This document shows positions 10,508 to 64,000 of a stretch of DNA of 64,000 nt, one piece after another. Source of the DNA: Brachypterus glaber (Eukaryota > Arthropoda > Insecta > Coleoptera > Kateretidae); contig OY294048.1 of the NCBI GenBank assembly GCA_958510825.1, positions 37,847,026-37,911,025 of the forward strand. The letters are read 5' to 3'. Both the position numbers and the translations under genes were made by a program. Positions within the stretch are counted from its first letter, which is position 1. The number at the start of each line of letters is the position of its first letter. The notes under the pieces were generated by a model. The model made no database searches. It was not told where the DNA came from and was given only the letters and a program-made list of their open reading frames with translations.

Positions 10508-10519
10508 GTATTACATATA

Positions 10520-38829: not shown

Positions 38830-39105
38830 CGATCGGTCCTGATTTGTCAAAAGATTTAAATCCCTTTTCATAATCCACACACCCTTTGTAAAACTTGTCA
38901 AATTGTTGTAAATGTGGATATAATTCACCATTTTCTTGTGTTTTAATAAATTCTAATAGGTTATTTGCTTTTTTGTTATCCATATTTTTATATCCTAAAA
39001 GACCATTACAAACATGGCCATTTAGAATTTTACATTTATTAGATGACTTCGATAAAAACTTATGCTCATCCTTTAATTCCGCCTGTATTGTGAACTCTTC
39101 CCCAC
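38830..39105 (-). CDS. M13-like gene, first domain exon
   Basis: The acceptor is tttaaccag at 39105 and the donor G|gtaagt at 38830. It is 276 nt, phase 1 on both sides, so it can join any micro-exon of the array. It encodes GGEEFTIQAELKDEHKFLSK, SSNKCKILNGHVCNGLLGYK, NLLEFIKTQENGELYPHLQQ, FDKFYKGCVDYEKGFKSFDK and SGPI. The C-x(6)-C pair and the FYKGCVDYE block resemble the M13 N-terminal 'C..(F/Y)..AC' and 'FY.SCMD.E' cysteine sites. I place the start of the M13-like domain here. The match is weak and by eye; a novel cysteine-containing fold is the alternative. Confidence 0.65.
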
Positions 39106-44645: not shown

Positions 44646-44678
44646 CAATAGTGGATTTTATTATATTTTCTTCTTCTT
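44646..44678 (-). CDS. Micro-exon 1 (numbered from the 3' end), 33 nt
   Basis: The acceptor is atctag and the donor is a GC type (G|gcaag). It encodes KEEENIIKSTI when joined to the preceding A-ending exon. It is the most diverged unit of the tight array and is followed by about 5.5 kb of intron before the exon at 39105. Confidence 0.55.
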
Positions 44679-44772
44679 CTAGATAAAACGGTAATTATTT
44701 TTATTATGAATTATTCTATAGCCAATTATTAATTAAAATAGTTAATTAAAAAAATTAAAAAAAAAAACTTAC

Positions 44773-44817
44773 TAGTAGTAGATGTTGTTATACTTTCTTC
44801 TTCTTTTTGAGTAACTT
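44773..44817 (-). CDS. Micro-exon 2, 45 nt
   Basis: The acceptor is ctag and the donor gtaag. It encodes EVTQKEEESITTSTT. It ends in A instead of the usual G, so the next split codon becomes Lys rather than Glu. Confidence 0.65.
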
Positions 44818-44896
44818 CTAGAAAAAAAACGATTATTATTATTATTTTGTATGACCAATTTAACAATATTTTATTCAAAAACCTATAAAAACTTAC

Positions 44897-44935
44897 CAGT
44901 AGTAGATGTTGTTATACTTTCATATTCAGTAACAT
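44897..44935 (-). CDS. Micro-exon 3, 39 nt
   Basis: The acceptor is tctag and the donor gtaag. It encodes DVTEYESITTSTT, the short non-Glu-run type also seen at 46656. Confidence 0.65.
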
Positions 44936-45012
44936 CTAGAAAAAATAAATAAATAATTTATAACCGATTATTTAATTAACAATGCTTTAGTTAAAAAGTT
45001 ATAAAACCTTGC

Positions 45013-45051
45013 CAGTAGTGGATGTTGTTGGACTTTCTTCTTTTTGAGTAA
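45013..45051 (-). CDS. Micro-exon 4, 39 nt, shifted acceptor and GC donor
   Basis: The usual ctag acceptor has become ctaa, but the AAG three bases downstream serves as acceptor and keeps the frame (G + TT = Val). The donor is gcaag. It encodes VTQKEESPTTSTT. Confidence 0.6.
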
Positions 45052-45137
45052 CTTTTAGAAAAAAAAACAATTAGGTATTTAATTTACAACCGATTATTAA
45101 TTTAAAATAATTTAATCAAAAAGTTATAAAAACTTGC

Positions 45138-45188
45138 CAGTAGTGGATGTTGTTATAATTTCTTCTTCTTCTCCTTTTTGAGTAGCTT
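45138..45188 (-). CDS. Micro-exon 5, 51 nt, GC donor
   Basis: The acceptor is ctag with AAG following (tandem acceptor). It encodes EATQKGEEEEIITTSTT. Confidence 0.65.
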
Positions 45189-45256
45189 CTAGAAAAAACA
45201 GTAATATTTATTTTATAACCAATTGTTATTTAACAATTTAACCTATAAAAACTTAC

Positions 45257-45313
45257 CAGTAGTGGATATGGTCATACTTTCTTTTTCTTCTTCTCCTTCT
45301 TCTTGAGTAGCTT
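45257..45313 (-). CDS. Micro-exon 6, 57 nt
   Basis: Acceptor ctag, donor gtaag. It encodes EATQEEGEEEKESMTISTT. Two substitutions (Ile to Met, Thr to Ile) set it apart from the array consensus. Confidence 0.7.
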
Positions 45314-45383
45314 CTAGAAAAAAAACATAAATATTTATTTTATAGCTAATTGTTATTTAACAATTTAACCTATAAAAACTTAC

Positions 45384-45452
45384 CAGTAGTGGATGTTGTT
45401 ATACTTTCTTTTTCTTCTTCTTCTTCTTCTTCTTCTTCTTCTTGAGTAGCTT
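45384..45452 (-). CDS. Micro-exon 7, 69 nt, expanded Glu run
   Basis: It encodes EATQ, ten Glu, then KESITTSTT. The expansion is a pure GAA run (ttc on the plus strand) and adds whole codons only. Confidence 0.7.
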
Positions 45453-45520
45453 CTAGAAAAAACATAAATATTTATTTTATAACTAATTGTTATTTAACAA
45501 TTTAACCTACAAAAACTTAC

Positions 45521-45577
45521 CAGTAGTGGATGTTGTTGTACTTTCTTTTTCTTCTTCTCCTTCTTCTTGAGTAGCTT
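45521..45577 (-). CDS. Micro-exon 8, 57 nt
   Basis: It encodes EATQEEGEEEKESTTTSTT with ctag acceptor and gtaag donor. The intron to the next exon is 68-70 bp. Confidence 0.7.
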
Positions 45578-45646
45578 CTAGAAAAAAACATAAATATTTA
45601 TTTTATAGCTAATTGTTATTTAAAAATTTAACCTATAAAAACTTAC

Positions 45647-45715
45647 CAGTAGTGGATGTTGTTATACTTTCTTTTTCTTCTTCTTCTTCTTCTTCTTCTT
45701 CTTCTTGAGTAGCTT
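45647..45715 (-). CDS. Micro-exon 9, 69 nt, expanded Glu run
   Basis: It encodes EATQ, ten Glu, KESITTSTT. It is nearly identical to micro-exon 7, two units away, which suggests duplication of a two-unit block. Confidence 0.7.
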
Positions 45716-45783
45716 CTAGAAAAAACATAAATATTTATTTTATAACCAATTGTTATTTAACCATTTAACCTATAAAAACTTAC

Positions 45784-45837
45784 CAGTAGTAGATGTTGTT
45801 ATACTTTCTTTTTCTTCTTCTTCTTCTTGAGTAGCTT
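45784..45837 (-). CDS. Micro-exon 10, 54 nt
   Basis: It encodes EATQEEEEEKESITTSTT, one codon shorter than the consensus. Canonical splice sites. Confidence 0.7.
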
Positions 45838-45905
45838 CTAGAAAAAACATAAATATTTATTTTATAACTAATTGTTATTTAACAATTTAACCTACAAAAA
45901 CTTAC

Positions 45906-45962
45906 CAGTAGTGGATGTTGTTGTACTTTCTTTTTCTTCTTCTCCTTCTTCTTGAGTAGCTT
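45906..45962 (-). CDS. Micro-exon 11, 57 nt
   Basis: It encodes EATQEEGEEEKESTTTSTT, identical to micro-exon 8. Canonical splice sites. Confidence 0.7.
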
Positions 45963-46030
45963 CTAGAAAAAACAATAATATTTATTTCATAACTAATTGT
46001 TATTTAACAATTTAACCTACAAAAACTTAC

Positions 46031-46087
46031 CAGTAGTAGATGTTGTTATACTTTCTTTTTCTTCTTCTCCTTCTTCTTGAGTAGCTT
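46031..46087 (-). CDS. Micro-exon 12, 57 nt
   Basis: It encodes EATQEEGEEEKESITTSTT, the array consensus. Confidence 0.7.
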
Positions 46088-46155
46088 CTAGAAAAAACAT
46101 AAATATTTATTTTATAACCAATAGTTATTTAATAATTTAACCTATAAAAACTTAC

Positions 46156-46209
46156 CAGTAGTGGATGTTGTTGTACTTTCTTTTTCTTCTTCTCCTTCTT
46201 CTTGAGTAG
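46156..46209 (-). CDS. Micro-exon 13, 54 nt, primary acceptor lost
   Basis: The usual ctag acceptor is ctgg here. The AAG three bases downstream can replace it and keeps the frame, giving ATQEEGEEEKESTTTSTT. If the lost site were still used the exon would extend to 46212. Confidence 0.6.
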
Positions 46210-46280
46210 CTTCCAGAAAAAACAATAATATTTATTTCATAACTAATTGTTATTTAACAATTTAACCTACAAAAACTTAC

Positions 46281-46337
46281 CAGTAGTAGATGTTGTTATA
46301 CTTTTTTTTTCTTCTTCTCCTTCTTCTTGAGTAGCTT
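46281..46337 (-). CDS. Micro-exon 14, 57 nt
   Basis: It encodes EATQEEGEEEKKSITTSTT; a Glu codon has become Lys. Canonical splice sites. Confidence 0.7.
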
Positions 46338-46405
46338 CTAGAAAAAACATAAATATTTATTTTATAACCAATAGTTATTTAATAATTTAACCTATAAAAA
46401 CTTAC

Positions 46406-46462
46406 CAGTAGTAGATGTTGTTATACTTTCTTTTTCTTCTTCTCCTTCTTCTTGAGTAGCTT
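46406..46462 (-). CDS. Micro-exon 15, 57 nt
   Basis: It encodes EATQEEGEEEKESITTSTT. The acceptor is tatag instead of tctag, still valid. Confidence 0.7.
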
Positions 46463-46530
46463 CTATAAAAAACATAAATATTTATTTTATAACCAATAGT
46501 TATTTAATAATTTAACCTATAAAAACTTAC

Positions 46531-46587
46531 CAGTAGTGGATGTTGTTATACTTTCTTTTTCTTTTTCTCCTTCTTCTTGAGTAGCTT
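46531..46587 (-). CDS. Micro-exon 16, 57 nt
   Basis: It encodes EATQEEGEKEKESITTSTT. Canonical splice sites. Confidence 0.7.
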
Positions 46588-46655
46588 CTAGAAAAAAACT
46601 ATATTATTTATTTTATAACCAATTGTTGTTTAACAATTTAACCTATAAAACTTAC

Positions 46656-46694
46656 CAGTAGTATATGTTGATATACTTTCATCTTTAGTAACAT
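46656..46694 (-). CDS. Micro-exon 17, 39 nt
   Basis: The acceptor is tttttag and the donor gtaag. It encodes DVTKDESISTYTT. It is the last unit of the tight array; a 4.1-kb mobile element separates it from micro-exon 18. Confidence 0.65.
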
Positions 46695-46891
46695 CTAAAA
46701 AAAAGGTAATTAATTTACATTCGATTACCCTGTCCCACAACGAAAATGTACTTTTTTTCTGACATAACCTGTCTTAAAGCAGTTATTCTTCTGATTACAA
46801 ATTTTTGTTCAGATTTGGGCTACCACCGCACGGTTTTTATATACAGGGTGCTTAAGAAAAAAAAACCTTTTTTTTATATGTCTGTATACAT

Positions 46892-47033
46892 CTATACTGC
46901 CGTGCTATGAAAGACCCGCGTATCTCCATTTGTAGAATAGCAGCGTTTTCAAAATATTACACCGAGTAGACGTGAAAACGTTGCTATGCGTCAAATGGAG
47001 ATACGCGGGTCTTTCATAGGACGGCCGTATAGA
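46892..47033. mobile_element. Foldback MITE family 1, diverged copy
   Basis: The arms ctatgaaagacccgcgtatc and gatacgcgggtctttcatag flank the core gcagcgttttcaaaatatta and gacgtgaaaacgttgctatg, which is shared with 1-105 and 19726-19850. Confidence 0.8.
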
Positions 47034-47792
47034 TCCTGAATTTATGAATATTTTTGTATCAAATTCGGGTGACTTATAAAAAAAGGATGTGCTTTTAAGA
47101 AGTTGATAGATTTTTTATAATATCGACCGCCATTTTTTATAGTAATTTTTTTTACTGTCAAATTTTTGAAAGACTTTTTTTTACGTAACAAGAATTAAAA
47201 CATTCTGTTTTTATCTCGCTTCAATTTACTTTTTTATTATTTAATAGGGAGCTTCTAGAAGTGGCGCTAAATAAATTTTGAGTGCATCGTGTCGGAAATG
47301 TTAACCCCAATGTATAGTAGGAGCGCCCCCGAGCAAGTCGAAACAGTACACAGGCCTTAAAACTGATTATAACGCTTCTTTGCCGTGTTTGTGTTAAAAA
47401 AAAATTCTGAAGCCGGTGGATCAGACTGGAAGGCAAAATTAACGTTGTTTATCCTGATGTCAAATCTGTATTTTTGCCCAAATTAAAAGAAAATATTTTG
47501 AAACAAGATACTGAAATGGAAGGACAAAATAATGAAATAAAAAAAATGTAAATAAGGAATCTGAAGATATTGAAATAGGAGAATATGTGACTGAGACATA
47601 TCAAGACTTGCCATTTGAACATAATGAAATTCATTTTTCGAGCAGATCTGAATTGTTTGGATGTTTAACAGTTTAACCTACTACAAAAAGACACAAGGAT
47701 TACTGTATACCGTAATCTAGAGCCTAAGTTTGCCTGCTTTTATGCAATGAAGGACGACCTTTGCTATTGTAGGTAATAATATACAGGGCTTA

Positions 47793-48480
47793 ATGCACCA
47801 AATGCAAATTAAATATCATAAGCCATCCCAGTGGCGTCTTTTTACAGATGCTTCAAAATCTAGTTTGAAGGTTGTTTTATTACACAATGGAAACAAGAAG
47901 CCTTCAATTCTTATTGCGTCGTATTCTACAAATATGAAAGAATATGAAAATATGAAAATTATCTTACTACATATTAAATTGCGGTTAACGAAAATTGTTG
48001 TAAAGGCATTAAAACAAGACGATGAACCATATTTGTAACTAAAAGAAAAGTTCCCGAAGCTGTCAGAAGCCAAATTAAAGAGGGGGTTTGTAGGACCACA
48101 ACTCAGAAAAAAATTTAAAGAGGAATTTTGAGTTAAAACATTCTAAGTCTGAAAAACTGGCCTGGCTTTCATTGAAAATTGTAATCTCTCGACTTCTAGG
48201 TTAAAAAAGGAAGAAGAATTATGTAGGTCTGGTGAAATCACTCATAAGAAACTACCGATTGGTGGGATATAGAATGTCCCTTAAAATACATTCACATCTG
48301 GATTACTTTCCAGCTAATCTCGGCGCTGTCAGTAAGAAGCAAGGTGAAAGATTTCATCAAATTGCGAATATGGAAAAGCGTTATTAGGCAAAAGGACATC
48401 CTGCTATGTTGGGTGATTACTATTGGTCCGTAGAAGCAGTATATACAACTGTATACAAAAGAAAAAAAAGTAATAAACAT
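47793..48480 (+). pseudogene. Broken ORF of a widespread arthropod repeat-ORF family
   Basis: The frame starts KYHKPSQWRLFTDASKSSLK and VVLLHNGNKKPSI, jumps (internal deletion) to LLHIKLRLTKIVVKALKQDD, then after stops and frameshifts KFPKLSEAKLKRGFVGPQ and, near 48285-48400, IHSHLDYFPANLGAVS and GERFHQIANMEKRY. These blocks appear in this order in a large uncharacterised ORF found in many copies in arthropod genomes. I know it only as a repeat-associated family of unknown biochemical role. A decayed N-terminal relative is at 4240-4480. It is clearly dead here. Confidence 0.6.
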
Positions 48481-49045
48481 TTACATTATTTTTAGTTCAG
48501 GTTATATAGTTGTTAACGCAAGTCATTAAGGCTCCTAGATAAAATTAAGCTAAATGCATTATTTATTATTATCTTATGGAAACTGTCTTTCGGTCAAAAA
48601 TTCTAAATTTTTAGTATGATATAGATTTCATCTTTCTGATCAAAAGCATGCAAGTCCGAAAACCCAGCACTTTTACAATATTGGTTGAAAATTACCATAA
48701 TTATAGCTTACATTCTACAAAAGATAGCAGTAAAATTACCAAAATAAAAATTCACATTTTTACAGTGAATTTACAGTACTGATTTAAATATACCACTTTC
48801 TTTGCTGGTAACATATGACCTACTTTATTTGCTGTGAAATTACCATATTTGCATTTAGCGTACGGGACAAAATTCAGTAATGGGAGAAAATATGTCTCTA
48901 GCTCCAAAAAAACTTAAATATGGATTTTTTGTGCAATTTAGTTATTAAAATGTCTTCAATATTAACTGGTTTTGATACTCAGTTAATAATAGCTTCTATA
49001 AATATCGTGTGTTTTGAAAATCTGATATATTAACCTAAAAAACGT

Positions 49046-49939
49046 AACAACGGTCCCTTGTCTCCCGCAACCTTGTATGTATGTATTTGTATGTAGATTA
49101 CCTTAATTAAACTTTGCAAAATATTTTTTAGTTAATCTAAGAACTGTTAACTTACGTCATAAGACTTATTTACTTGGAAAATCTTATACTGGTTTGAATA
49201 AAAAAAATAATAACTTATGTCTCCCAATTTAAATCGAGCGCTTCTTATATTAGTAAAATCCGACAGTGCTAGAATGCCGATCGTGGTACATTAAAATTAT
49301 TAGTAGAAGATCAGTACCAAGTATTTTAATTACGTGTTAAGAGCGGTAAGTACTTCTAATTGTAAATATGCATTTAATAAATTTAGTTTAAGCGATGTTA
49401 TTTTAATGCGTACTTTTTAAATGAACAACGCCGGTCCCTAATATTATCTTAATTGTTTTTAATTATATCTCAGACTAAACATTTTATATTTGTACAATAA
49501 CATATACAATACGTAACCTCAAATTTGCAGGAACTGATCTCAAAGACCTTGATCCAAATCCCACTAATTGTATCTAAACGCAACGACGGTCCCTTGTAAC
49601 GACGGTCCCCACGAAAAGGAACCGTTGTTGCTAACATAGGGAACGTTGTTACATATTTGAAAAATTATGCAAATTTTTACTCTGTTAACATTGTTCTTTC
49701 TAAAACTCTTGCAGAATAAAGAAATAAATATATTCCAAACTCAAAAAAAAACAATATAATGCCTAAAATTAATCTTAGAGAAAGCCAATTGGATGAAAAG
49801 GGGAGTGAGAAATATAAAAAATATTATATTAAAAATATTAATTTTATTTTTAAATTGAGAAAATTTGGTCCCTTTTCTAAGAACAACGGTCCCTATAAAA
49901 AAATAACGACGGTCCCTATAAATAATAACAACGGTCCCT
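49046..49939. repeat. Dispersed aac(a/g)acggtccct motif, seven direct copies and one inverted
   Basis: The 13-mer aac(a/g)acggtccc(t) occurs at about 49046, 49424 (with two extra bases), 49582, 49598, 49882, 49905 and 49927; a reverse copy (aaccgttgttg) is at about 49618. Spacing is irregular and the flanks are AT-rich. The frames at 49741-49995 on both strands simply traverse it. It could be a subterminal binding-site array of the surrounding element. Confidence 0.6.
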
Positions 49940-50873
49940 CTAAGAATAATAAAATTGTTGCTAATCAACTGTATGTACAACCCTCTTGGATTTGATCTTT
50001 TATTACAATATAAAGAATAACTATCACAATTTTTGTTTTTTAATATATTTTTTTTAATTTATTATTATTAAACCAATTTATACCATTATTAAATTTTATT
50101 CCGTACGTACTGTTCCGGCTCATACTATATAGCGCTCATACCTGTACTAAAATTACCATCATGAAGCACTTAAAATTGATGTAGCGCGCCACTTCTAGAA
50201 GCTCCTCATCAAAAAATAAAAAATCAAAATAAAGTCAACTTAGAAGCACATCCTTTTTTTAAAAGTTTCCGGAATTTAATCAAAAAATTCTACAGACATT
50301 TAAATTAATTTAAAAGGTGTTTTTTTTTCTAAAACACCCTGTATATAAAAAATGTGCTGTCGTAGCCCAAGTCTAAAAAAAGATTCAGATGGGGCGTTTT
50401 CTCGCTATCCTTTTCATCCAGGATAGACATGATTTTGACATATTTAATGACAAATTGAGTTTCAGTGGAAGTCAAAATGTGGTATTGAAAAAACTGTTTT
50501 CACAGCATATCCATTTTTATTGTAAAATCTAAAAAAAGTATGTAAAAGTGCAAAGTACATATATCTCCTATAGCCCTGTAGAATTCGGGTGACCCCAAAG
50601 TTCATAAATATTTTAGAAATAAAAAAACAGTTTAGTACCACATTTTGATTTCCACTGATACATTTTGCCATTTATCACTTATATGTCAAAATCATGTTTT
50701 TTACAGTCCATCCTGGATGAAAAGGATAGCGAGAAAACGGCCCAAGAATCAGGAGAAAAACTGCTTTAAGATGAGTTATGTCAGAAAAAAAAGTATGCTT
50801 CAAAAATTTCATTTTGTGGGATAGTGTTATTAATTTGCCTACAATAGTTTAGTCAAAAAGTATTAAAACTTGC

Positions 50874-50900
50874 CAGTAGTGGATGTTGTTATACTTTCTT
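50874..50900 (-). CDS. Micro-exon 18, 27 nt, GC donor, rebuilt acceptor
   Basis: It encodes EESITTSTT. A T-tract and ctaagag have been inserted into an ancestral longer exon (remnant AAATTATCCAAAAAGAAG at about 50917-50934). The new AG after the T-tract is the only nearby acceptor that keeps phase 1. It is plausible but less certain than the array exons. Confidence 0.45.
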
Positions 50901-50962
50901 CTCTTAGAAAAAAAAAATCTTCTTTTTGGATAATTTCTAGAAGAAAACAAATTACGTTGATG

Positions 50963-52951
50963 TACACTCAAAAATTTTCCATTTTTCCACCATTTTAGCT
51001 GATTCTAGACCTTGCTTCGTTTTTCTCGATCAGCTCGTTTTTTTGAGATAGGTATAGAGCAAAGTGTTTTTTTGCCTATAGTTGTAGTAAAAAAATTAAG
51101 GTCTAAATATTTTTTTGCGGTAGATTGGTTCTCTATTAATTAAAAAGCACAAAAAAAGCGGATTTAAAATATATTTATTCTTTTTTTTTATAGACTTCTA
51201 AATTTAAAATATGGCATTTTGTTGCCTTTTTTCGCTATATTTTCATGAAAATCTATTATATAAAATCCAAATTGACTGACTTCAGGAGAAAACACCCAGC
51301 CCAAACCCCTGGATTTAGAAACTTGAAGTTTGGACAGTTTGTTCTTTTTATCATTTAAGCACAAACTAAGAAACGATTTTTCGAAATTCAGCCCTTAAGG
51401 GGGTGAAACGGGGGATGAAAGGGTTTTTAAAAAGTGTGCGTATCTCAGAGACATCTAAATCTAGAATCTTCATATTAAAAGATACATGTTTCAGGATTTT
51501 TCGATATTCAACCCCTAAGGGGTAAAACGGGTGTTGAAAGGTTTTTTTAAAGGTGTACGTATCTCAGAGACCTCTTAATCTAGAATCTTCACATTTGTCA
51601 CAAGTATTCTTTATCAAAATCGAAAAGAAATATATTTCAGGAATTTTCAATATTCGACCCCTAAGGGGGTGAAACGGGGGTTACTTTACAATCTCAATAT
51701 TTATCAAAAAAGTTTTTTATTGATATCTAAAATTAAAATAAAAGAAATACTTCCTTCCCCTTGATTGCGGAAAAATTATTAAACGAGGTTAGTAAAGAGA
51801 GAACTAATTTAAGTTTTTAACTAACCCGTTCAAAGGACGGGCTTCACGGCTTTTTTATATAAATACTAAAGATATGGCTCTAATTTTTATGAACAACACT
51901 AACACACATACATGTGAGGTTTGTAAAAATAAAAAAGATTTAGATTGAATACAGTAACGGAGGTTTTACGGGAAATTATTAAAAGCAGAACAACAATATT
52001 TTGATGTTTATTTTATATTATTTTAATATTTTAAAGGAAGGAGAAAAATCTTTTCTTTTAATTTTTCGTTTTGTTTTTTTTTTCATAACATAATTTATCG
52101 TGTTGCTCTTTCAAAAATAAATAAAATACTTCAATATATTTGTTTTTTTTTTCGATACTCCGCGCTAAAATCTCTGTCACTGGATTAAATCAAAAACTTT
52201 TTAAACCGCACAGGGACGTCTCGAGGGGAACAGAACAACAATATTTTGATGTTTATTTTATATTATTTTAATATTTTAAAGAAAGGAGAAAAATCTTTTC
52301 TTTTAATTTTTCGTTTTGTGTTTTTTTTTTCATAACATAATTTATCGTGTTGCTCTTTCAAAAATAAATAAAATACTTCAATATATTTGTTTTTTTTTTT
52401 CGATACTCCGCGCTAAAATCTCTGTCACTGGATTAAATCAAAAACTTTTTAAACCGCACAGGGACGTCTCGAGGGGATATCCCGGGAAGGTCCTTTCGGG
52501 ATATCCCTGTGATATACAGGTAGTATGTCCCCGGGAAATACGAAGGACATTTGGGATGTACGAGGTTTTTCCATGGGATATACGGTTTGGAAAGTTGCTC
52601 GACTTCCCATTTAGTAACAAAAGTATATCCTGGGGAAGTCGCAAATTTCCGTTTAGTAATCCTGGGGATACGCATTGTAAAACGTGTCCTTTATGGGTAT
52701 GTGTTAGTACTGCATATAAAAATTAGTCATAGCTTTACAAGGGTGTAGATATCCACTGCAAAAAGAAAAGAATTAGACATTTTTTCACTACATCTATAGG
52801 AAAAAAACACTGTGCACTATATCTCAACAAAAAAAAAACGAGCTGATCGAGAAAAACGGAAAGGTTTCAAAATCAGCGCATCAAATATAACCAGACGCAA
52901 CTAAAAGGTCCCCGGCAAAAAAAAATATATTTTTTTGTAAAGCAGTGTCAT
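50963..52951. mobile_element. Foldback element family 3, copy with internal tandem repeats
   Basis: The left arm (tttctcgatcagctcgtttt, attggttctctattaa) is inverted at the right end (aatccactgcaaa, aaacgagctgatcgagaaaa). Inner arms pair around gtaacggaggttttac / ctaaaatctctgtcactgg. It carries three tandem units (51371, 51491, 51636) with cccctaagggggtgaaacgg and a direct duplication of about 246 bp (51986-52230 and 52231-52477). The related copy at 60880-61965 is more compact. Confidence 0.65.
52478..52690. repeat. GC-richer dispersed repeat, copy 1 (copy 2 at 57893-58140)
   Basis: The blocks gaggggatatcccgggaagg, cctttcgggata, gtatgtccccgggaaatac and cctggggaagtcgcaaattt recur at 57893-58140. 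Gene-like frames on both strands (ending RITKRKFATSPGYTFVTK on the minus strand in both copies) are shared only because the DNA is repeated. Confidence 0.7.
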
Positions 52952-53466
52952 TATTATTTTATGACCAATTACACAGGCCAACAAGTATTTTGTGATCGGA
53001 TATTTTTTTTTATTTTCTGGCTTAGTTAGGACTCACTGACTGCCAAACAAGTATTTTTTTGTTTTCATCACGTTTAATTTTTTTCAGCTATAGACCATGC
53101 CAAAAATCTCATTCTTTAACATGAAGTGTAGAATGTTTAAGTTTAACATAATCAAGAGAAACCATTTGACACGTTTTTAGAAAGATCAAAACAAAAATAA
53201 AATTTTGGACCACCCTTATGGCGGATTTTTTTTTATTTTTGTTATTTTATTAGAAACCAGCGGTATCAAAAATAGTCGTATCCAAAAATTCAGAATTTTG
53301 TCCCTCGTTTTTTTTTCTTGGCCCACTGTGCGGTTGTTCAAACCCCTAACGTGACGGACAAAAACGGAAGTTATATTCGAAATCGACATAACTAAATTAC
53401 CCAAATCAGTTGTTGGTCTGTGTTATTAATTAACAATAGTTTATCCAAAATCCTATAAAAACTTAC

Positions 53467-53493
53467 CAATTTTACTTTCATCTTCAGTATCAT
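53467..53493 (-). CDS. Micro-exon 19, 27 nt (module A)
   Basis: Acceptor tttttag, donor gtaag. It encodes DDTEDESKI. Only nine codons, yet phase 1 to phase 1. Confidence 0.6.
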
Positions 53494-53553
53494 CTAAAAA
53501 AAAATTATAACAGTTTATTGATTTAGTTTAGTCAGTAGTGGATGTTGTTATAC

Positions 53554-53595
53554 CTTCTCTCGAGCCTTCCCCTTCTTGAGCAACTTCCGAGGTAC
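53554..53595 (-). CDS. Micro-exon 20, 42 nt, donor shifted upstream (module A)
   Basis: The donor position used elsewhere reads CTACTG|actaaa here and is not a splice site. Twenty-one bases upstream GAAG|gtataa is a plausible donor and preserves phase 1, giving GTSEVAQEGEGSRE. The old exon remainder (ITTSTT) would become intronic. Confidence 0.5.
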
Positions 53596-53672
53596 CTAGA
53601 AAAACAATTATTATTATTTTATAATCAATTATTATTTAATAATAGTTTATTTAGAAACATTTAAAAACTAAC

Positions 53673-53708
53673 CAGTAATAGATGTTTTACTTTCATCTTT
53701 AGTAACAT
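53673..53708 (-). CDS. Micro-exon 21, 36 nt (module A)
   Basis: Acceptor ttttag, donor gttag. It encodes DVTKDESKTSIT. Confidence 0.6.
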
Positions 53709-53750
53709 CTAAAAAAAAAACAATTAATTTACAATCGATTACACTGCTCA

Positions 53751-54440
53751 AAAATATTTGCGGTTCCGAAATCAGCGCATCAAATATAACCAGACGCAAC
53801 TAAGAGGTTCCCGGCAAAAAAAATATATATTTTTTTGTAAAGCAGTGTCATTATTATTTTATGACCAATTACACAGGCCAGCAAGTACTTTGTGATAGGA
53901 TATTTTGTTTTATTTTCTGGCTTAGTTAAGACTCAATGACTGCCAAAAAAGCATTTTTTTTTTGTTTTCATCACGTTCAATTTTTTTCAGCTATAAACCT
54001 TGCCAAAAATCTTATTCTTTAACATGAAGTGTAGAATTTTTAAGTTATGGACATTGGTCTACATCAACATAATCAAGAGAAAACATTTGACACATTTTTA
54101 GCAAGATCAAAACAAAAAATAAAATTTTGGACCACCCTTATAGCGCGGATTTTTTTATTATTTTTGTTATTTTATTCGAAATCAGCGGTATCAAAAATAG
54201 TCGTATCCAAAAGTTCAGAAATTTGTCCCTCGTTTTTTTTCTTGGTCCACTGTGCGGTTGTTCAAAACCCTTACATGACGGACAAAAATGGAAGTCTATT
54301 CGAAATCAAAATAACTAAATTACCCAAATCAGTTGTTGGTCTGTGTTATTAATTAACAATAGTTTATTCAAAATCCTATAGAAACTTACCAATTTCACTT
54401 TCATCTTCAGTATCATCTAGAAAAAAATAATAATTTATAG
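53751..54440. repeat. Module B: second duplicated block
   Basis: It is the same order as module A. Only the 27-nt exon is intact. A chimeric remnant at 54461-54493 (GTAACAGAG junction) shows a deletion fusing the second and third exon sites; it has neither acceptor nor donor. Confidence 0.7.
54390..54416 (-). CDS. Micro-exon 22, 27 nt (module B)
   Basis: Acceptor tctag, donor gtaag. It encodes DDTEDESEI, one Lys-to-Glu change from the module A copy. Confidence 0.6.
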
Positions 54441-54460
54441 CAGTTTATATTTAGTTTAGT

Positions 54461-54493
54461 CAGTGATAGATGTTTTACTTTCATCTTTAGTAA
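54461..54493 (-). pseudogene. Broken micro-exon, splice sites lost
   Basis: The sequence still reads VTKDESKTSIT, but the left border is ctctg instead of an AG acceptor and the right border is CTG|actaaa. It probably arose by deletion between neighbouring exon units. Confidence 0.55.
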
Positions 54494-54495
54494 CA

Positions 54496-55195
54496 GAGAT
54501 TTTTTCTTATTTTAACACACACACATGTGAGGTTTGTAAAAATAAAAAAAGTTTTAGATTGAATCCAGTAACGGAGACTTTACTGAGAGTTATTTATAGC
54601 AGAACAACAATATTTTGAATTACTTAATGTTTTAAAGCAATAGAAAAAGTTTATTTTTATTTTTCGTTTTGTTTTTTTCATAATAAACTTGTTTATTTAA
54701 TATTATTTTAATGTTTTGAAGCAATAGATTTTTTTTTAATTTTTCGTTTCGTTTATTTCGTAATAAACCTAATTTATTGTATTGCTCTCCAAAAAATAAA
54801 TTAAATATTTCAATTTTTTTGTTTTTTTTTTACAATAACCCCCTGTAAAATCTCCGTCACTGGATTAAGTCTAAAACTTTTTTTATTTTTATAAACCGCA
54901 CATATGTGTTAGTATTGTTTATAAAAATTAGAGTCGTATCTTTAGTATTTATATAAAATTTTCATCAAAATATATCGAAAAAATGCGAAAAAAACTAATT
55001 TTTTGAATTTAGAACCTTATTAAAAACAACGAATAAAGAAATTTTAAATTCTCTTAAAGAACCAATCCACTGCAAAAAAAGAATTAGACATCTTTTTTAC
55101 TACATCTATAGGAAAAAAAACACTGCACTATATCTCAAAAAAAACGAGCTGATCGAGAAAAACGGAAAAAGGTTCCGAAATCAGCGCATCAAATA
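54496..55195. mobile_element. Foldback family 3 copy, left of the mariner insertion
   Basis: It shares 'taacggagactttactgaga', 'agcagaacaacaatattttg', 'cctgtaaaatctccgtcact' and 'aaaacgagctgatcgagaaa' with the copies at 59230-60010 and 61200-61960. It is interrupted at the word catcaaata by the mariner-like element. Confidence 0.65.
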
Positions 55196-55663
55196 CACGG
55201 TGTCCCACGGTAGACAAATCAGTCAAACTGTGGCGTTATTAACAAAGATATCAACATGAAACTTTTACCAGTCAATATGGACCTAATTATCTTCAATTGA
55301 CCCAAAACAAAAGTTTTCTACTTTTTTTTGGTTTTGAGCTAGAACTCCACACATGCACTTTTAAAAGCATAACAATACTTTCAAATGCCAAAATTAAAAA
55401 AAAATAACAATTTTTCTTTATCATATGATAGTTTTTTTCACTAAAAACAATAATTTTCGATTTAAATTCTTAATTTTATAAAACCTTAAAAAAGGGCAAT
55501 TGCATAATGGAATGACCCCGCTATGGCAAAAGAGTAGGATGCCTTGAAGTTAATTTTTTTAAATAAGTCGTATATGATGACATAAATGTAAAATTTGATT
55601 TTACATTATAATTAAAAAATTAACAAAGCAAGATTTTTATAAAACCAAGTTTTGAATGCCAAA

Positions 55664-55903
55664 ATGATAACTTTAGAAGTAAATAAAGAAATTATTTTAA
55701 CTTATGGAGAATATGCTCGAAATTTAAGAGAAACAACGAGAAGAATAGTAGAAAAGTTCCCCGATGATAGTATTAGTTACTTTAGCGTACGAAGAATTGT
55801 TAATTTATTTTTGGATACTGGAGGAGTGAGGGACATAAAAAAAGTTTGCGAAAGTCCAGTAACCAAAGATCCTGAAACTATAACTATAATTCAATCAATT
55901 TGA
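55664..55903 (+). pseudogene. Truncated transposase-type helix-turn-helix ORF
   Basis: About 79 codons contain EIILTYGEYARNLRETTRRI, VEKFPDDSISYFSVRRIVNL and FLDTGGVRDI. This fits the helix-turn-helix pattern (YGE...N..E...+Y.E+FP......F......L..TG) found at the N-terminus of insect mariner-type transposases and related domains such as DUF4817. The catalytic DDE part is missing, since an hAT element and non-coding DNA follow. It is a dead remnant of the host mariner-like element. Confidence 0.6.
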
Positions 55904-56138
55904 TATTTTAACTTATGAGAATTATTCTTAGTATCATTTAACTTTTAATTCCAACCAAAATGTACGTAATTAATTACATAACAATAAATTCATTGACTAA
56001 ATTGCCTATAATATGACAGTTATTTTCCTTTGTTCTTCTGTAATTGGTCTAATTTTGGTCTGGTTTGGTTCAAAAAAACAAAACAAACGACTAAGAACAA
56101 AAGCACGAAGTAGGACTAGATGAAGTGACCCTAATATG

Positions 56139-56765
56139 CAGGGCCGGACAGAGCCAGTCCGGGCCCCGGTGCAACTTTTTACTCGGGCCCCCATTTTTTC
56201 AAAACATAATTGTCCCATGCAGGCCTGCAGCTAAGGCACTGAGGGCCGAAGCGGCGCCCCCATTCATTAACTAAGCGCCGCAGTCGAAAATTTTTCCAAA
56301 TTATGTTAATTTCTGACTGTTTTATTTTCATAGTTCAGCAAGCTTAAGTATGTAAAAAATAATAAAGTCTTAGCGCCGCAGGCGAAATTTTTTTCAATTT
56401 TGATAGGACTGGCGCCGCAGGCAATTTTTTTACAAATTTTAAGCTTTTGCAAGCTTGAACTAAAAAAAATACGTAGGTAAATTAGCCCTAGCGCCGCGGG
56501 CGAATTTTTTTACAAATTTTAAAACACTAGTAACAGTGCACTATTATTTTTTACAAAAATCCAAAAAGGCTTAAGCGCTGCAGCGGCGAAATTTTTTCTA
56601 TTGCCCATTTGGAACGAGATCTACTTATTTGTTCATTTTGACGCCTTATCGATCTGGGGGAGTATAAATAAATAAACTGTTTATTAAAAACTTCTGTCGC
56701 CGGGCCCCATTCGAGCCCGGACCCCGGGTAATCTGTACCCCCTGCACCCCCTGAATCCGGCCCTG
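56139..56765. mobile_element. Non-autonomous hAT element, 627 bp, 8-bp target duplication
   Basis: The termini cagggccgga and tccggccctg are complementary, and the 8-bp word ctaatatg flanks it (56131-56138 and 56766-56773). An 8-bp duplication with CAGGG ends is diagnostic of the hAT superfamily. The interior repeats gcgccgcaggcgaa-like phrases (about 56270, 56370, 56410, 56495) and is GC-richer than the host. No transposase is present. Confidence 0.85.
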
Positions 56766-57892
56766 CTAATATGAACCAGCTGCAACTTCATGCAACTGCG
56801 AGGGAAGGGGATTCTTTACAAGCTAATTAATTATGTTTTTTAAAATCTCATAATTATAAAACATGTTTTATCATAAGTTGTCCAATAGGTTTTATAATAA
56901 CTTGGTTTACCAATACTTTCATTATGATATAGACTTGACTTTGTAAAAAAAACTGCTAAGATTAATCTAAGATTAATCCATTCATACCAATTAAAAAATT
57001 TGATTGAGCGCAAAAAATCAAAATTTATTAGTAATTAAGTAATACACTCTGTAGTATAAAATACCCTAGTCCACAAGGTCCTTACTAAGTCTAAGTAAAA
57101 ATCTAATTTATAACATTAGATTTGACATTTATTTTTATCGTGAACGTCATATTTGCAAACATTTATTTTCATAGCATCCTCTCTTTTACATTAGCGGGGT
57201 CATTCCATAATGCACTTACCATTTTTTACCGTTTTCTAAAATTAAAAATTTAAATAGAAAACTATTGTTTTTAGTAAAAAAAACTATCATATGATAAAGA
57301 AATGATATTATTTTTTTAAATTTTGGCGTTAAAAAATGTTATTATGCTAAAAAAAAATTCTGTTTGTTGCTCTAGCCTAAAAACAGAAAAAAGTACAACA
57401 CTTTTTTCTGGCGTAAATTGAAGGTAACTAGGTCTATATTGACTGGTAAAAAATATATTTTAATAGCTTTGATAATAACGCCACAATTTGACTGATTTGT
57501 CTACCGTGGGACACCGTGTATAACCAGACGCAACTAAAAGGTCCCCGGAAAAAAATATATATTTTTGTAAAGCAGTGTCATTATTATTTTATGACCAATT
57601 ACACAGGCCAACAACTATTTTGTGATCGGACATTTTTTTATTTTCTGGCTTAGTTAAGACTTACTGACTTCCAAAAAAGCGTTTTTTTTTTGTTTTCATC
57701 ACGTTTAATTTTTTTTAGCTATAAACCATGCAAAAAATCTCATTCTTTAACATGAAGTGTAGAACTTTTAAGTCATGGACATTGGTGTACATCTACATGA
57801 TCAAGAGAAACCATTTGACACATTTTTAAAAAGATCAAAACAAAAATTTTGGTCCACACTTATGTCGCGGATTTATTTTTTTTTTAAGACCC

Positions 57893-58140
57893 GAGGGGAT
57901 GTCCCGGGAAGATCCTTTCGGGATACCCCTGTTATATAGAGGCAGTATGTCCCCGGGAAATACCCCTCTGGACGTCCCTGGGATACACGAAGGATATTGG
58001 GGATGTACAAGGTATATCCATGGGATATATGCGGGTTCGGAAGTCGCTCGACTTCACGTTTAGTAACAAAAGTATATCCTGGGGAAGTCGCAAATTTCCG
58101 TTTAGTAATCCTGGGGATATCCATCGTAAAACGTGTGCTA
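57893..58140. repeat. GC-richer dispersed repeat, copy 2
   Basis: It corresponds to 52478-52690, with an extra segment near 57965-57990. It is followed by a poly-G patch (58212-58220) and the complementary gggggggtagttaccccc area at 58320-58346, which can pair locally. Confidence 0.65.
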
Positions 58141-58964
58141 TATGGCTATGCGTTAGTACTGCATATAAAAATAGAGTAATATCTTTACAAGGGAGTAGAT
58201 GTTTTTTTTATGGGGGGGGGGTAATACCAAGATCTTAGATATTTTTTCCGGGATAAAAAAGGCAAATTTATATTTTTTTATAGGATAATTCAATAAAAAA
58301 AAAATATTTTTATCCTATGGGGGGGTAGTTACCCCCATTACCCCCTCATCTACGCACTTGCATCTTTAGTATTAATATAAAAATATTATCAAAATAATTC
58401 AAAAAATGCAAAAAAAATCTCATTTATTAGATTAAAAAGCCAATAAAAAAAGAAATTTAAATTCGTTTTTTTTTTGCTTAAGGAACCAATCCACTGCAAA
58501 AAAATTGCTTGCCTGAACTCCGCTACGCAAAATGCAGTCTAGTGCGGAAAAGAGCCTCTTTCAATACTTGTTAGAAAAATAGCTATTTCAGCTATAAACT
58601 ATGCCAAAAATCTCATTCTTTAACATGAAATGTAGAATTTTTAAGTTATGGACATTGGTTTACATCAACATAATCAAGAGAAACCATTTGACACATTTTT
58701 AGAAAGATCAAATATAAATAAAATTTTGGTTATGGCGGGGATTTTTTTTTAATTTTTTTGTTATTTTATTCGAAATCAGCGGTATCAGAATTTTGTCCCT
58801 CGTTTTTATTTTTTCTTGGTCCACTGTGCGGTTGTTCAAAACCCTTACGTGACGGACAAAAACGGAAGTTATATTCGAAATCAACATAACTAAATTACCC
58901 AAATCAGTTGTTGGTCTGTGTTATTAATTAACAAAAGTTTATCCAAAATCCTATAAAAACTTAC

Positions 58965-58991
58965 CAATTTTACTTTCATCTTCAGTATCAT
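58965..58991 (-). CDS. Micro-exon 23, 27 nt (module C)
   Basis: Acceptor tctag, donor gtaag. It encodes DDTEDESKI. Confidence 0.6.
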
Positions 58992-59055
58992 CTAGAAAAA
59001 AAAATAATTTAGAACAGTTTATATTTAGTTTAGTCAGTAGTGCATGTTGTTATAC

Positions 59056-59112
59056 CTTCTTCCGAGCCTTCTCCCGAGCCTTCCCCTTCTTCTTGAGCAA
59101 CTTCCGAGGTAA
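59056..59112 (-). CDS. Micro-exon 24, 57 nt, donor shifted upstream (module C)
   Basis: It has the same donor situation as micro-exon 20: GAAG|gtataa would be used. It encodes VTSEVAQEEGEGSGEGSEE, expanded relative to modules A and D by an extra GEGSE-type repeat, again in whole codons. Confidence 0.5.
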
Positions 59113-59189
59113 CTAGAAAAACAATTATTATTATTTTATAACCAATTATTATCTAATAATAGTTTATTTAGAAACATTTAAAAACTAAC

Positions 59190-59225
59190 CAATAATAGAT
59201 TTTTACTTTCATCTTTAGTAGCAGA
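59190..59225 (-). pseudogene. Broken micro-exon (module C)
   Basis: It corresponds to the 36-nt exon of modules A and D. One base is lost (aaaaatct for aaaacatct) and the acceptor is destroyed (ctctgc), so it cannot be used in frame. Confidence 0.6.
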
Positions 59226-59229
59226 GATT

Positions 59230-60005
59230 TTTTCTTATTTTTTTTTCGCTATATTTTTATGAAATTTTTATACTAAGAATATGGCTGTGATTTTTATAAG
59301 CAACACTAACACACATGTGAGGTTTGTAAAAATAAAAAAAGTTTTAGATTGAATCCAGTAACGGAGATTTTACTGAGAGTTATTTAAAGCAGAACAAAAA
59401 TATTTTGAATTATTTAATGTTTATTTAATATTATTTTAATGTTTTAAAGCAATAGAAAAAGTTTATTTTTATTTTTCGTTATATTTTTTTCATAATAAAC
59501 TTGTTTATTCAATATTATTTTAATGTTTTGAAGCAATAGAATTTTTTATTTTTATTTTTCGTTTCGTTTTTTTCATAATAAACTTAATTTATTGTGTTGC
59601 TCTCCAAAAAATAAATAAAATATTTCAATTTTTATGTTTTTCTTTTCGATAACCCCCGGTAAAATCTCCGTCACTGGATATAAATCTAAAACTTTTTTAT
59701 TTTTATAAACCGCACATATGTGTTAGTATTGCTTATAAAAAATAGAGTCGTATCTTTAGTATTTATATAAAATTTTTATCGAAATATATCGAAAAAATGC
59801 GAAAAAAACTAATTTTTTGAATTTAGAAGCTTATTAAAAACAAACGAATAAAGATATTTTAAATTCGCTTAAAGAACCAATCCACTGCAAAAAAAAAAGA
59901 ATTAGACATCTTTTTTTACTACATCTATAGGAAAAAACACTGTGCACTATGTCTCAAAAAAAAAACGAGCTGATCAAAAAAACGGAAAAAGGTTCCGAAA
60001 TCAGC
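59230..60005. mobile_element. Foldback family 3 copy between modules C and D
   Basis: It has the same internal order as 54496-55195 and 61200-61960 (ggtttgtaaaaataaaaaa, taacggagattttactgaga, ggtaaaatctccgtcactgg, accgcacatatgtgttagta). No coding content. Confidence 0.65.
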
Positions 60006-60605
60006 GCATCAAATATAACCAGACGCAACTAAAAGGTCCCCGGCAAAAAAAAATATATATTTTTGTAAAGCAGTGTCATTATTATTTTATGACCAATTAC
60101 ACAGGCCAACAAGTATTTTGTGATCGGATATTTTTTTTATTTTCTGGCTTAGTTAGGACTCACTGACTGCCAAACAAGCATTTTTTTGTTTTCATCACGT
60201 TTAATTTTTTTCAGCTATAAAGCATGCCAAAAATCTCATTCTTTAACATAAAGTGTAGAATGTTTAAGTTATGGACATTGGTCTACATCAACATAATCAA
60301 GAGAAACCATTTGACACATTTTTAGAAAGATCAAAACAAAAATAAAATTTTGGACCACCCTTATCGCGCGGATTTTTTTTTTATTTTTGTTATTTTATTA
60401 GAAACCAGCGGTATCAAAAATAGTCGTATCCAAAAATTCAGAATTTTTTTTTTTTCTTGGCCCACTGTGCGGTTGTTCAAAACCCTAACGTGACGGACAA
60501 AAACGGAAGTTATATTCAAAATCAACATAACTAAATTACCCAAATCAGTTGTTGGTCTGTGTTATTAATTAACAATAGTTTATTCAAAATCCTATAAAAA
60601 CTTAC

Positions 60606-60632
60606 CAATTTTACTTTCATCTTCAGTATCAT
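60606..60632 (-). CDS. Micro-exon 25, 27 nt (module D)
   Basis: Acceptor tctag, donor gtaag. It encodes DDTEDESKI. Confidence 0.6.
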
Positions 60633-60694
60633 CTAGAAAAAAAAATTATAACAGTTTATTGATTTAGTTTAGTCAGTAGTGGATGTTGTTATAC

Positions 60695-60736
60695 CTTCTC
60701 TCGAGCCTTCCCCTTCTTGAGCAACTTCCGAGGTAC
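60695..60736 (-). CDS. Micro-exon 26, 42 nt, donor shifted upstream (module D)
   Basis: It is identical to micro-exon 20 and encodes GTSEVAQEGEGSRE with donor GAAG|gtataa. Confidence 0.5.
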
Positions 60737-60813
60737 CTAGAAAAACAATTATTATTATTTTATAACCAATTATTATCTAATAATAGTTTATTTAGAAACA
60801 TTTAAAAACTAAC

Positions 60814-60849
60814 CAGTAATAGATGTTTTACTTTCATCTTTAGTAACAT
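60814..60849 (-). CDS. Micro-exon 27, 36 nt (module D)
   Basis: Acceptor ttttag, donor gttag. It encodes DVTKDESKTSIT, identical to micro-exon 21. Confidence 0.6.
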
Positions 60850-60879
60850 CTAAAAAAAAACAATTAATTTACAATCGAT

Positions 60880-61965
60880 TACACTGCTCAACTCTCAAAA
60901 ATTTGCCGACACCATTTTAGTTGCATCTGGCTATATTTAATGCGCTGATTTCGGAACCTTTTTCCGTTTTATCGATCAGCTCGTTTTTTTTTTTTGAGAT
61001 ATAACGCACAGTGTTTTTTTGCTTATAGATGTGGTAAAAAAAAATTAAGGTCCAATTAATTTTTTTGTTTGCGGTGGATTGGTTCTCTATTAATAGGGCT
61101 CTAAACCAAAAAAAAAAACGGATTTTAAATATCTTTACTCTTTACAATGTTTGTTTTTTTATTGGTTTCTAAATTCAAAAAATGAGATTTTTTCGTATTT
61201 TTTCGCTATATTTTCATGAATTTTTTATATAAATACTAAGAATATGGCTCTGATTTTTATAAGCCATACTAACACACATGCGAGGTTTGTAAAAATATAA
61301 AAAATAGATTGGATCCAGTAACGGCGATTTTACGGAGAGTTATTTAAAGCAGAACAACAATATTTTGAATTATTTAATGTCTATTTAATATTATTTTAAT
61401 GTTTTAAAGCAATAGAAAAAGTTTTTTTTTTTAATTTTTTTTTTTTTTTTTTTTTCATAATAAACTTAATTTATTGTGTTGCTCTCCAAAAAATAAATAA
61501 AATATTTCAATTTTTATGTTTTTCTTTTCGATAACCCCCGGTAAAATCTCCGTCACTGGATATAAATCTAAAATTTTTTTTATTTTTATAAACCGCACAT
61601 ATGTGTTAGTATTGCTTATAAAAAATAGAGTCGTATCTTTAGTATTTATATAAAATTTTCATCAAAATATATCGAAAAAATGCGAAAAAAACTAATTTTT
61701 TGAATTTAGAAGCTTATTAAAAACAAACGAATAAAGATATTTTAAATCCGCTTTTTTTTGCTTAGAGAATCAATCCACGGCAAAAAAAATAATTATACCT
61801 TTTTTTTACTACAATTATATGCAAAAAAACCCTGTGCGCTATATCTCAAAAAAACGAGCTGATCGAGAAAAATGGAAAAAGGTTCCGAAATGAGCGCATC
61901 AAATATAGCGAGAAGCAACTAAAAGCTCCCTGGCAAATAAAAAAAATCTTTTTTTGTAGAGCAGG
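60880..61965. mobile_element. Foldback element family 3, compact copy
   Basis: The left arm (aaaatttgccgacaccat, atttcggaacctttttccg, atcgatcagctcgttttttt, gcggtggattggttctc) is inverted on the right (gaatcaatccacggcaaaa, aaaacgagctgatcgagaaa, ggaaaaaggttccgaaat). The centre pairs gtaacggcgattttacgg with taaaatctccgtcactgg. It lies between micro-exons 27 and 28. Confidence 0.7.
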
Positions 61966-62010
61966 GTTATTAATTTACAATAGTTTTGTCAAAAAGTTAT
62001 AAAAACTTGC

Positions 62011-62064
62011 CAGTCTCGTTGCCAGTAGTGGATGTTGTTATACTTTTTCCTTCTCCTTGCGAAC
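62011..62064 (-). CDS. Micro-exon 28, 54 nt, two in-frame GC donors
   Basis: The acceptor is ctaaaag. It encodes GSQGEGKSITTSTTGNET with donor G|gcaag at 62011. A second site, CTACTG|gcaac at 62023, is the ancestral donor position and would drop exactly four codons. Either choice keeps phase 1. Confidence 0.6.
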
Positions 62065-62145
62065 CTTTTAGAAAAAACGATTCTTATTATTTTATAACCA
62101 ATAATTTATTTACAATAGTTTATTCTTGAACCTATAAAAACTTAC

Positions 62146-62153
62146 CAGTAGTA
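62146..62153 (-). pseudogene. 3' stub of a micro-exon split by a MITE
   Basis: A canonical donor (CTACTG|gtaag) and the last exon bases are present. The exon is cut at TA by the element at 62154-62824 and resumes at 62827 with ctaaaacagaatc on the minus strand (TKTES in frame). No acceptor is identifiable before the next insertion at 62841. Confidence 0.55.
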
Positions 62154-62824
62154 CCCAGACAGCACAAGGATGACTTACAGATATCTTAAAGATGTCGTAG
62201 CTCGTCATTCAAGACGTCTTAAGAACGTCGGTTTTCGCCGTATATGCATCTTAAGGACGTCTTAACGACGTCGTATGTTACAAACGGTAACATCTTTAAG
62301 ACATATTTTTTAAGACGCCTTATTGACGCCTTGCACAGGCGACTTTACAACATAATACCCCCTCCCATTTACGTTGCCAGGTACGGCCGTATTGATATAA
62401 AAAGCGTAATAAGAATTAAATGAGAGGTAATTTGTTTGTCAAAAAAAGATCTTAAGAAAATGTGATTTTTTTAATTTTTTTTTTATTTTTTTTAATTTTC
62501 TTTTTTATTTTCTTTTTATTTTTGTCGTTTCTCGTAAAAAGAAAATTAAAAAAAATGATTTTTTTTTATTTTTCAAAAAAAGATCTTTAAAAAAAATTGT
62601 AATTTTTTTAATAGTTGATTGTGGTTAATTTATTTTTAGCGATGAGTATCGAAGTTAAGACGTCTTGTACCGATAATTAAAATACATCTTATAGACATCA
62701 TAATCAGATATCTTTTAAACATCCCTAAAAAGAAGTCCACAAGATATTCTTTTTATGTCTTTAGGCGTCCAGACATAATTAAGATCTAAAAAAGATGTCT
62801 TTAAGATATCATGTGCTGTCTGGG
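62154..62824. mobile_element. TA-flanked foldback MITE (cccagacagcac), inserted in a micro-exon
   Basis: The termini cccagacagcaca and tgtgctgtctggg are complementary, with TA at 62152-62153 and 62825-62826. The subterminal gatatcttaaagat and gacgtctta words recur in both orientations. The interior has a T/A-rich low-complexity stretch (62460-62620). Its right 205 bp are duplicated at 63795-64000. Confidence 0.8.
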
Positions 62825-62840
62825 TAGATTCTGTTTTAGT

Positions 62841-63774: not shown

Positions 63775-63794
63775 TACTATAGCACATACAGTGC

Positions 63795-64000
63795 GATGAG
63801 TATCGAAGTTAAGACGTCTTGTACCGATACTTAAAATACATCTTATAGACATCATAATCAGATATCTTTTAAACATCCCTAAAAAGAAGTCCACAAGATA
63901 TCCTTTTAATGTCTTTAGGCGTCCAGACATAATTAAGATCTAAAAAGGATGTCTTTAAGATATCATGTGCTGTCTGGGTAGATTCTGTTTTAGTATACTA
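63795..64000. repeat. Direct duplication of 62640-62845
   Basis: Over about 205 bp only a handful of differences are seen (aaaaaggatg for aaaaaagatg, atcctttta for attctttt). It contains the right end of the cccagacagcac MITE and the split micro-exon sequence again, ending at the window border. It suggests a tandem duplication that included the exon insertion site. Confidence 0.8.

Follow-up and report, generated by a model that had tools for sequence, protein, structure and literature searches.

The window analyzed here is a 64,000-nt stretch of the Brachypterus glaber genome (Coleoptera, Kateretidae; assembly GCA_958510825.1, contig OY294048.1, positions 37,847,026 to 37,911,025), numbered from its first letter. 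Its minus strand carries an array of 28 short units between positions 44646 and 62064, each preceded by an AG acceptor and followed by a donor that begins with GT or GC, and downstream of the array lie four ordinary exons that end in a stop codon. We read these elements together as the middle and 3′ part of a single protein-coding gene, in which a stalk encoded by phase-1 micro-exons would be followed by a C-terminal domain, and we put the probability of this reading at roughly 70%.

A phase-1 micro-exon array

The units range from 27 to 69 nt, and the length is a multiple of three in all 28. Every unit is also open in phase 1, starting at codon position 2 and ending at codon position 1. When joined, they translate into 443 codons without a stop, compared to 16 and 45 stops in the other two frames. 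Eighteen donors read GTAAG, and the others are GCAAG (n = 5; units 1, 4, 5, 18 and 28), GTATAA (n = 3; units 20, 24 and 26) and GTTAG (n = 2; units 21 and 27). Boundaries were picked among alternatives in units 4, 13, 18, 20, 24, 26 and 28, and the length of unit 18 is 63 or 27 nt depending on the acceptor taken. Units 1 to 17 lie head to tail (44646-46694), separated by introns that measure 68-71 nt in 12 of 16 cases and 77-94 nt in the other four. The encoded residues are rich in Glu (30% of 443), Thr (23.5%) and Ser (11.7%), with a net charge of -122, no Cys and a single Pro. Each unit, numbered from the end of the array nearest the C-terminal exons, is listed here with its strand (-).

44646-44678 (-): unit 1, 33 nt, GC donor; the last unit of the array before the C-terminal exons
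44773-44817 (-): unit 2, 45 nt
44897-44935 (-): unit 3, 39 nt
45013-45051 (-): unit 4, 39 nt, GC donor, acceptor CTAAAAG
45138-45188 (-): unit 5, 51 nt, GC donor
45257-46587 (-): units 6-16, head to tail, 54-69 nt each, introns of 68-71 nt
45257-45313, 45384-45452, 45521-45577, 45647-45715 (-): units 6-9
45784-45837, 45906-45962, 46031-46087, 46156-46209 (-): units 10-13
46281-46337, 46406-46462, 46531-46587 (-): units 14-16
46656-46694 (-): unit 17, 39 nt
50874-50936 (-): unit 18, isolated and divergent, GC donor, 63 or 27 nt
53467-53493, 53554-53595, 53673-53708 (-): units 19-21, one trio of a segmental duplication
54390-54416 (-): unit 22, 27 nt; the rest of its trio is a broken remnant at 54461-54494
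58965-58991, 59056-59112 (-): units 23-24; the third member of the trio, 59179-59223, is broken
60606-60632, 60695-60736, 60814-60849 (-): units 25-27, a trio
62011-62064 (-): unit 28, 54 nt, GC donor; the outermost complete unit
62132-62153 (-): donor half of a further, uncounted unit, interrupted by an inserted repeat at about 62157-62830 (limits of the insert by eye)

A first-pass annotation of this DNA had described 28 symmetric phase-1 micro-exons encoding an acidic Ser/Thr-rich stalk, 17 of them head to tail with introns mostly near 70 bp, and the counts above bear out both statements. The unit lengths that it listed hold in their range and in being multiples of three, except that the possible 63-nt form of unit 18 is absent from the list.

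To gauge the background, we took GTAAG, GCAAG and GTTAG donors and asked which had an acceptor 24-72 nt upstream, a length that is a multiple of three and an open phase-1 frame. All of these features were present at 24 of 28 donors in 44.6-62.2 kb, versus 2 of 20 elsewhere on the minus strand and 0 of 21 on the plus strand. By the same count, 20 first-order Markov sequences yielded a mean of 3.0 and a maximum of 6 such donors per 64 kb. A stricter splice-site scan returned 21 acceptor-donor pairs in the array, where one unit may give more than one pair, and none in the flanks at 62.15-75.1 kb and 39.2-44.6 kb. Based on these donor counts and the empty flanks, we rejected the array as a product of chance.

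The array and four C-terminal exons

Four exons and a polyadenylation-type motif lie downstream of the array:

38830-39105 (-): exon e1, phase 1 at both ends, with in-frame stops just upstream of its acceptor
38281-38696 (-): exon e2, 416 nt, acceptor uncertain
36483-36652 (-): exon e3, 170 nt
34876-35200 (-): exon e4, 325 nt, with the stop codon
34727-34732 (-): AATAAA, 144 nt beyond the stop

The exons join in frame to give 395 residues and a stop, with GTAAG at all three donor sites. Apart from the final stop of e4, each is open solely in its coding frame, and the frequency with which random sequence stays open over such a length is 0.0005 for e1, 0 in 4000 for e2, 0.013 for e3 and 0.00025 for e4. 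Two other in-phase acceptors are available for e2, at 38660 and 38645; the latter has a better pyrimidine tract and would make e2 365 nt long and the total 378 residues.

Two in-frame stops lie within 8 codons upstream of e1, so a phase-1 splice is the only way into this exon, unless translation begins at an internal Met some 42 residues further on. The nearest upstream candidate that we found for splicing into e1 is unit 1. Because e1 requires the phase that every unit supplies, the predicted structure is one gene comprising both the array and e1-e4. The idea that the array is unconnected to any gene was rejected, since these exons are phase-matched to it and in frame to the stop.

Repeat structure of the array

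Positions 45125-46680, covering units 5-17, form one 125-bp tandem repeat with a 90% match, and some units recur identically in a higher order (for example, 7 and 9, or 8 and 11). This pattern favors an alternative that we consider unlikely, namely that the tandem part is a minisatellite with a 125-bp period that grew within a gene from one real micro-exon. A few units would then be spliced, most would be passengers, and their intact splice sites would reflect recent copying. Variable columns are indeed distributed alike between exons and introns within units 6-16 (8/57 and 13/68, p = 0.48), and broken copies occur inside the duplicated trios, both of which speak for passengers. Over the wider set of units 2-17, however, exons are less variable than introns (20/51 versus 43/68 columns, p = 0.015). 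Gaps between these units point the same way, as they are always multiples of three in exons and mostly not in introns (105/105 versus 15/209 pairwise gaps, in pairs that are not independent and with unit 13 entered as 57 nt). Additionally, phase, open frame and splice sites persist in units 1-4, 17, 18 and 19-28, which are divergent and scattered over 17 kb.

The right-hand side of the array has a different repeat structure. Units 19-27 are duplicated trios within a block of repeats, and two of the four trios have lost members. The segmental duplication 52751-53751 / 59880-60891 (about 85-94% identity) carries micro-exon trios together with repeat sequence, and related blocks lie at 53762-54477 and 58586-59220. 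Two 204-bp copies that are 98% identical (62639-62842 and 63793-63996) flank a second inserted repeat beside the interrupted unit. Across the array as a whole, splice sites and frame look to have been maintained in most unit copies, and the residue sequence of the stalk seems loosely constrained.

Family searches with the C-terminal domain

No Pfam family was found for the 395-residue C-terminal model, the M13 N-domain PF05649 included, and the PDB held no solved relative of the domain. Homologue searches with the domain as query returned nothing at E 10 or better, either among 4746 word-sharing candidates of about 217-691 residues or, in a second search, among 7099 of about 461-1466 residues; the viral contigs searched gave nothing useful. 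Searched at E 0.001 (10 candidates scored), the 648-Mb genome contains no match to the e1-e2 part other than the part itself.

One lead for the domain is an M13 (neprilysin-like) N-domain in degenerate form, lacking the catalytic half. We regard this identity as doubtful, and it is compatible with the one-gene reading: M13 proteins often carry a membrane anchor ahead of the ectodomain, and the micro-exons would form a stalk between the two. The family was picked by eye before the tests, all of which used the 395-residue model. With a mixed M13 profile, 40 of 4000 exon-wise shuffles (3041 scored) reached the real score, and in another run 4 of 1000 (749 scored) did so. Exon e1 aligns at its expected place in the N-domain, as does e3 together with the beginning of e4, and the two are in order; a low-confidence model of e2 shows the order helix-helix-strand-strand-helix that is expected for this region. 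Against these points, the real score was reached by 170 of 4000 shuffles (3429 scored) with a vertebrate profile, by 419 of 4000 (2752 scored) with a bacterial one, and by 17 of 100 and 8 of 100 with hhalign. Taken alone, e2 and e4 align elsewhere, e4 out of order, and the structure model of e2 alone has a predicted local distance difference test score of 37.6, unusable for a fold search. The likeness to M13 peptidases amounts to a faint similarity, at profile level, in e1 and in e3 plus the start of e4; it is weak with each of the three profiles and lowest with the bacterial one. The difference lies in the catalytic domain, which is absent from the model: the 395 residues end with a stop and give no Pfam hit to PF01431 with its HExxH motif. 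A tie to the M13-like venom proteins of parasitoid wasps was dropped, as nothing in the present data links this genome to a wasp.

The 5′ end and the case against the gene

Upstream on the same strand is an MSH2-like gene with MutS domains, which ends near 75.03 kb (window coordinate). The possibility that the array splices into it was rejected because a last exon, a stop and an AATAAA belonging to the MSH2-like gene itself are present at that position. No further unit was found in the next 99 kb upstream of the array. Because of this and the position at which the MSH2-like gene ends, the first exon is expected within 62.15-75.1 kb, and the 5′ end of the predicted gene should lie between the array and its neighbor. 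When 62.2-80 kb was scanned loosely, 13 weak ATG-donor pairs came up, and the sole pair with a donor score of at least 9 and a strong hydrophobic stretch is 66377-66272.

Several observations weigh against a single working gene. A scan for GT donors over 62.2-163 kb found no convincing first exon, and the 66377-66272 candidate is doubtful, having a GC donor and overlapping a plus-strand open reading frame that resembles a transposase (label by eye). The e2 acceptor as first modelled is poor, and the donor is GTATAA in three units and GC in five. There are 31 unit copies in all, of which 28 are intact and three are broken and uncounted; the copy at 54461-54494 has neither a usable acceptor nor a usable donor, and the one at 59179-59223 has a 1-nt deletion and has lost its acceptor. 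Changes in the tandem exons are not enriched at third codon positions. The right-hand trios likewise give no significant excess of exon conservation, with 6/103 exon sites differing versus 26/489 elsewhere between trios A and B, and 0/105 versus 17/764 between A and C (p = 0.09). Finally, length differences between units are often whole GAA units, and GAA slips by three.

Two statements of the first-pass annotation are narrowed by these observations. Its claim of splice sites (AG acceptor, GT or GC donor) at every unit applies to the 28 that we counted but does not extend to all 31 copies. It had also argued that a decaying satellite would not keep both length and phase. This argument is weaker than claimed, because slippage of GAA alone keeps steps of three and because units 5-17 are a single tandem repeat of 90% match.

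Some of the same points would suit a decayed gene, in which the array and the C-terminal exons are remains of a gene no longer expressed. Besides the broken copies, the lack of a convincing first exon over the range scanned and the empty homologue searches, repeat sequence lies within introns and within one unit. We nevertheless hold decay to be quite improbable, as e1-e4 are open to the stop with GTAAG at every donor and a long-dead gene at such AT content would be expected to contain stops.

A possible stalk of variable length

Under the one-gene reading, the protein would consist of a low-complexity, acidic, Ser/Thr-rich stalk encoded by the micro-exons, leading into a C-terminal domain of 395 or 378 residues on four ordinary exons. 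It is probably extracellular or membrane-anchored.

Internal AG and GT dinucleotides in the 21 distinct units fall mostly in phase (105/125 and 19/25, respectively). Because units also begin and end in phase 1, skipping, trimming, duplication or loss of a unit would be frame-neutral. In unit 13, the usual acceptor reads GG and an in-phase AG follows three bases later. Where units 20, 24 and 26 have lost the usual donor, they contain the in-phase GTATAA. Unequal crossing over, skipping and the use of internal splice sites could accordingly add or remove units and leave the frame unchanged. Stalk length would then be free to vary among alleles, and possibly among transcripts, with the C-terminal domain staying in frame, and the stalk would be robust to unit gain, unit loss and mis-splicing. 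At this locus, recent tandem units occur next to older units that have diverged, to broken ones and to a duplication rich in repeats, so that both the growth and the decay of an array are on display.

A more specific proposal is that this is a lineage-specific, splice-tunable stalk gene, in which the array and its in-phase internal sites set the length and charge of an acidic extracellular stalk bearing a catalytically empty, highly diverged M13-like N-domain. We consider this combination very improbable. If it is true, micro-exon protein variation would have arisen independently a third time, in addition to the schistosome micro-exon genes (MEGs) and bicycle genes.

Other features of the window and its surroundings

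At about 145.6-146.7 kb (L091:2596-3723, minus strand), an open frame of 376 residues matches LD-carboxypeptidase (PF02016, PF17676) and has a hydrophobic stretch near its N-terminus. LD-carboxypeptidase is a mostly bacterial enzyme, and horizontal gene transfer or contamination is a possible source of this frame. A second open frame, of 755 residues at about 159.2-161.4 kb (L092:6162-8426, plus strand), contains acidic Glu-rich repeats and matches no Pfam family; its distance to the micro-exon array, which is likewise Glu-rich, is about 97 kb. Inside the window, 9471-10517 and 22706-23373 are long near-perfect palindromes (94% and 96% self-complementary) and probably fold-back elements. Positions 7860-8164 are a perfect (AATA)n run of 305 bp, and one element gives a DUF4817 match just below cut-off, DUF4817 being a domain found in arthropods.

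Comparison with known micro-exon systems

The first-pass annotation had likened the array to schistosome MEGs and aphid bicycle genes, the two best-known kinds of gene with many small exons of a single phase, whose proteins evolve fast and are mostly secreted. The likeness stands insofar as this is a coding array of symmetric micro-exons, with a starting codon position as in bicycle genes; judged on the features tested, the gene belongs to neither group. Like MEGs, the present gene has many short symmetric exons that could be dropped without a frame shift, with repeats around them. In MEGs, about 80% of the coding region lies in symmetric exons of 6-36 bp (PMC5825161). In the present array, seven of the 28 units are no longer than 36 nt, and they make up 8.5% of the coding sequence seen, of which the whole array is 53% (the 5′ end is missing from this total). 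We rejected MEG membership on the gap between 8.5% and about 80%. Further differences are that the present units are copies of a few repeat types and that a normal multi-exon domain follows them. MEGs have an N-terminal signal peptide and a secreted product; in 62.15-75.1 kb we found no convincing first exon and saw no signal peptide.

In bicycle genes, internal exons are numerous and unusually small, and almost all of them begin at codon position 2 (PMC9168663). The 28 units of 27-69 nt share the small size, and the codon position 2 start is common to these units, e1 and e2, with e3 starting at codon position 1; in this respect the likeness exceeds what was first claimed. Megacycle genes appear to have grown via internal tandem duplication, a further likeness to the present array. 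The published gene-structure coefficients for bicycle genes, with phase read as in the paper, give a low score of -17.6 to -21.3, a figure for an incomplete gene that assumes a first exon of 60-200 nt and a gene length of 32 kb. Bicycle proteins carry C-Y-C motifs, in contrast to an array without Cys and a C-terminal domain with one loose C-Y-C spacing, although certain bicycle genes also lack the motif. Their folds are helical and saposin-like (PMC13041983), and the present stalk is of low complexity. Given the score and the Cys-free array, we rejected bicycle membership as well.

Long runs of small symmetric exons also encode the low-complexity, length-variable segments of elastin and of the PEVK regions of titin and projectin. 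Their composition differs from that of the present stalk, which has one Pro in 443 residues. Bicycle genes aside, none of the listed open-access titles and abstract openings describes an insect gene of such structure, and genes with many small same-phase exons are rare (PMC9168663). We conclude that the gene structure predicted from this DNA is real and unusual, sharing symmetric micro-exons with MEGs and the codon position 2 start with bicycle genes.

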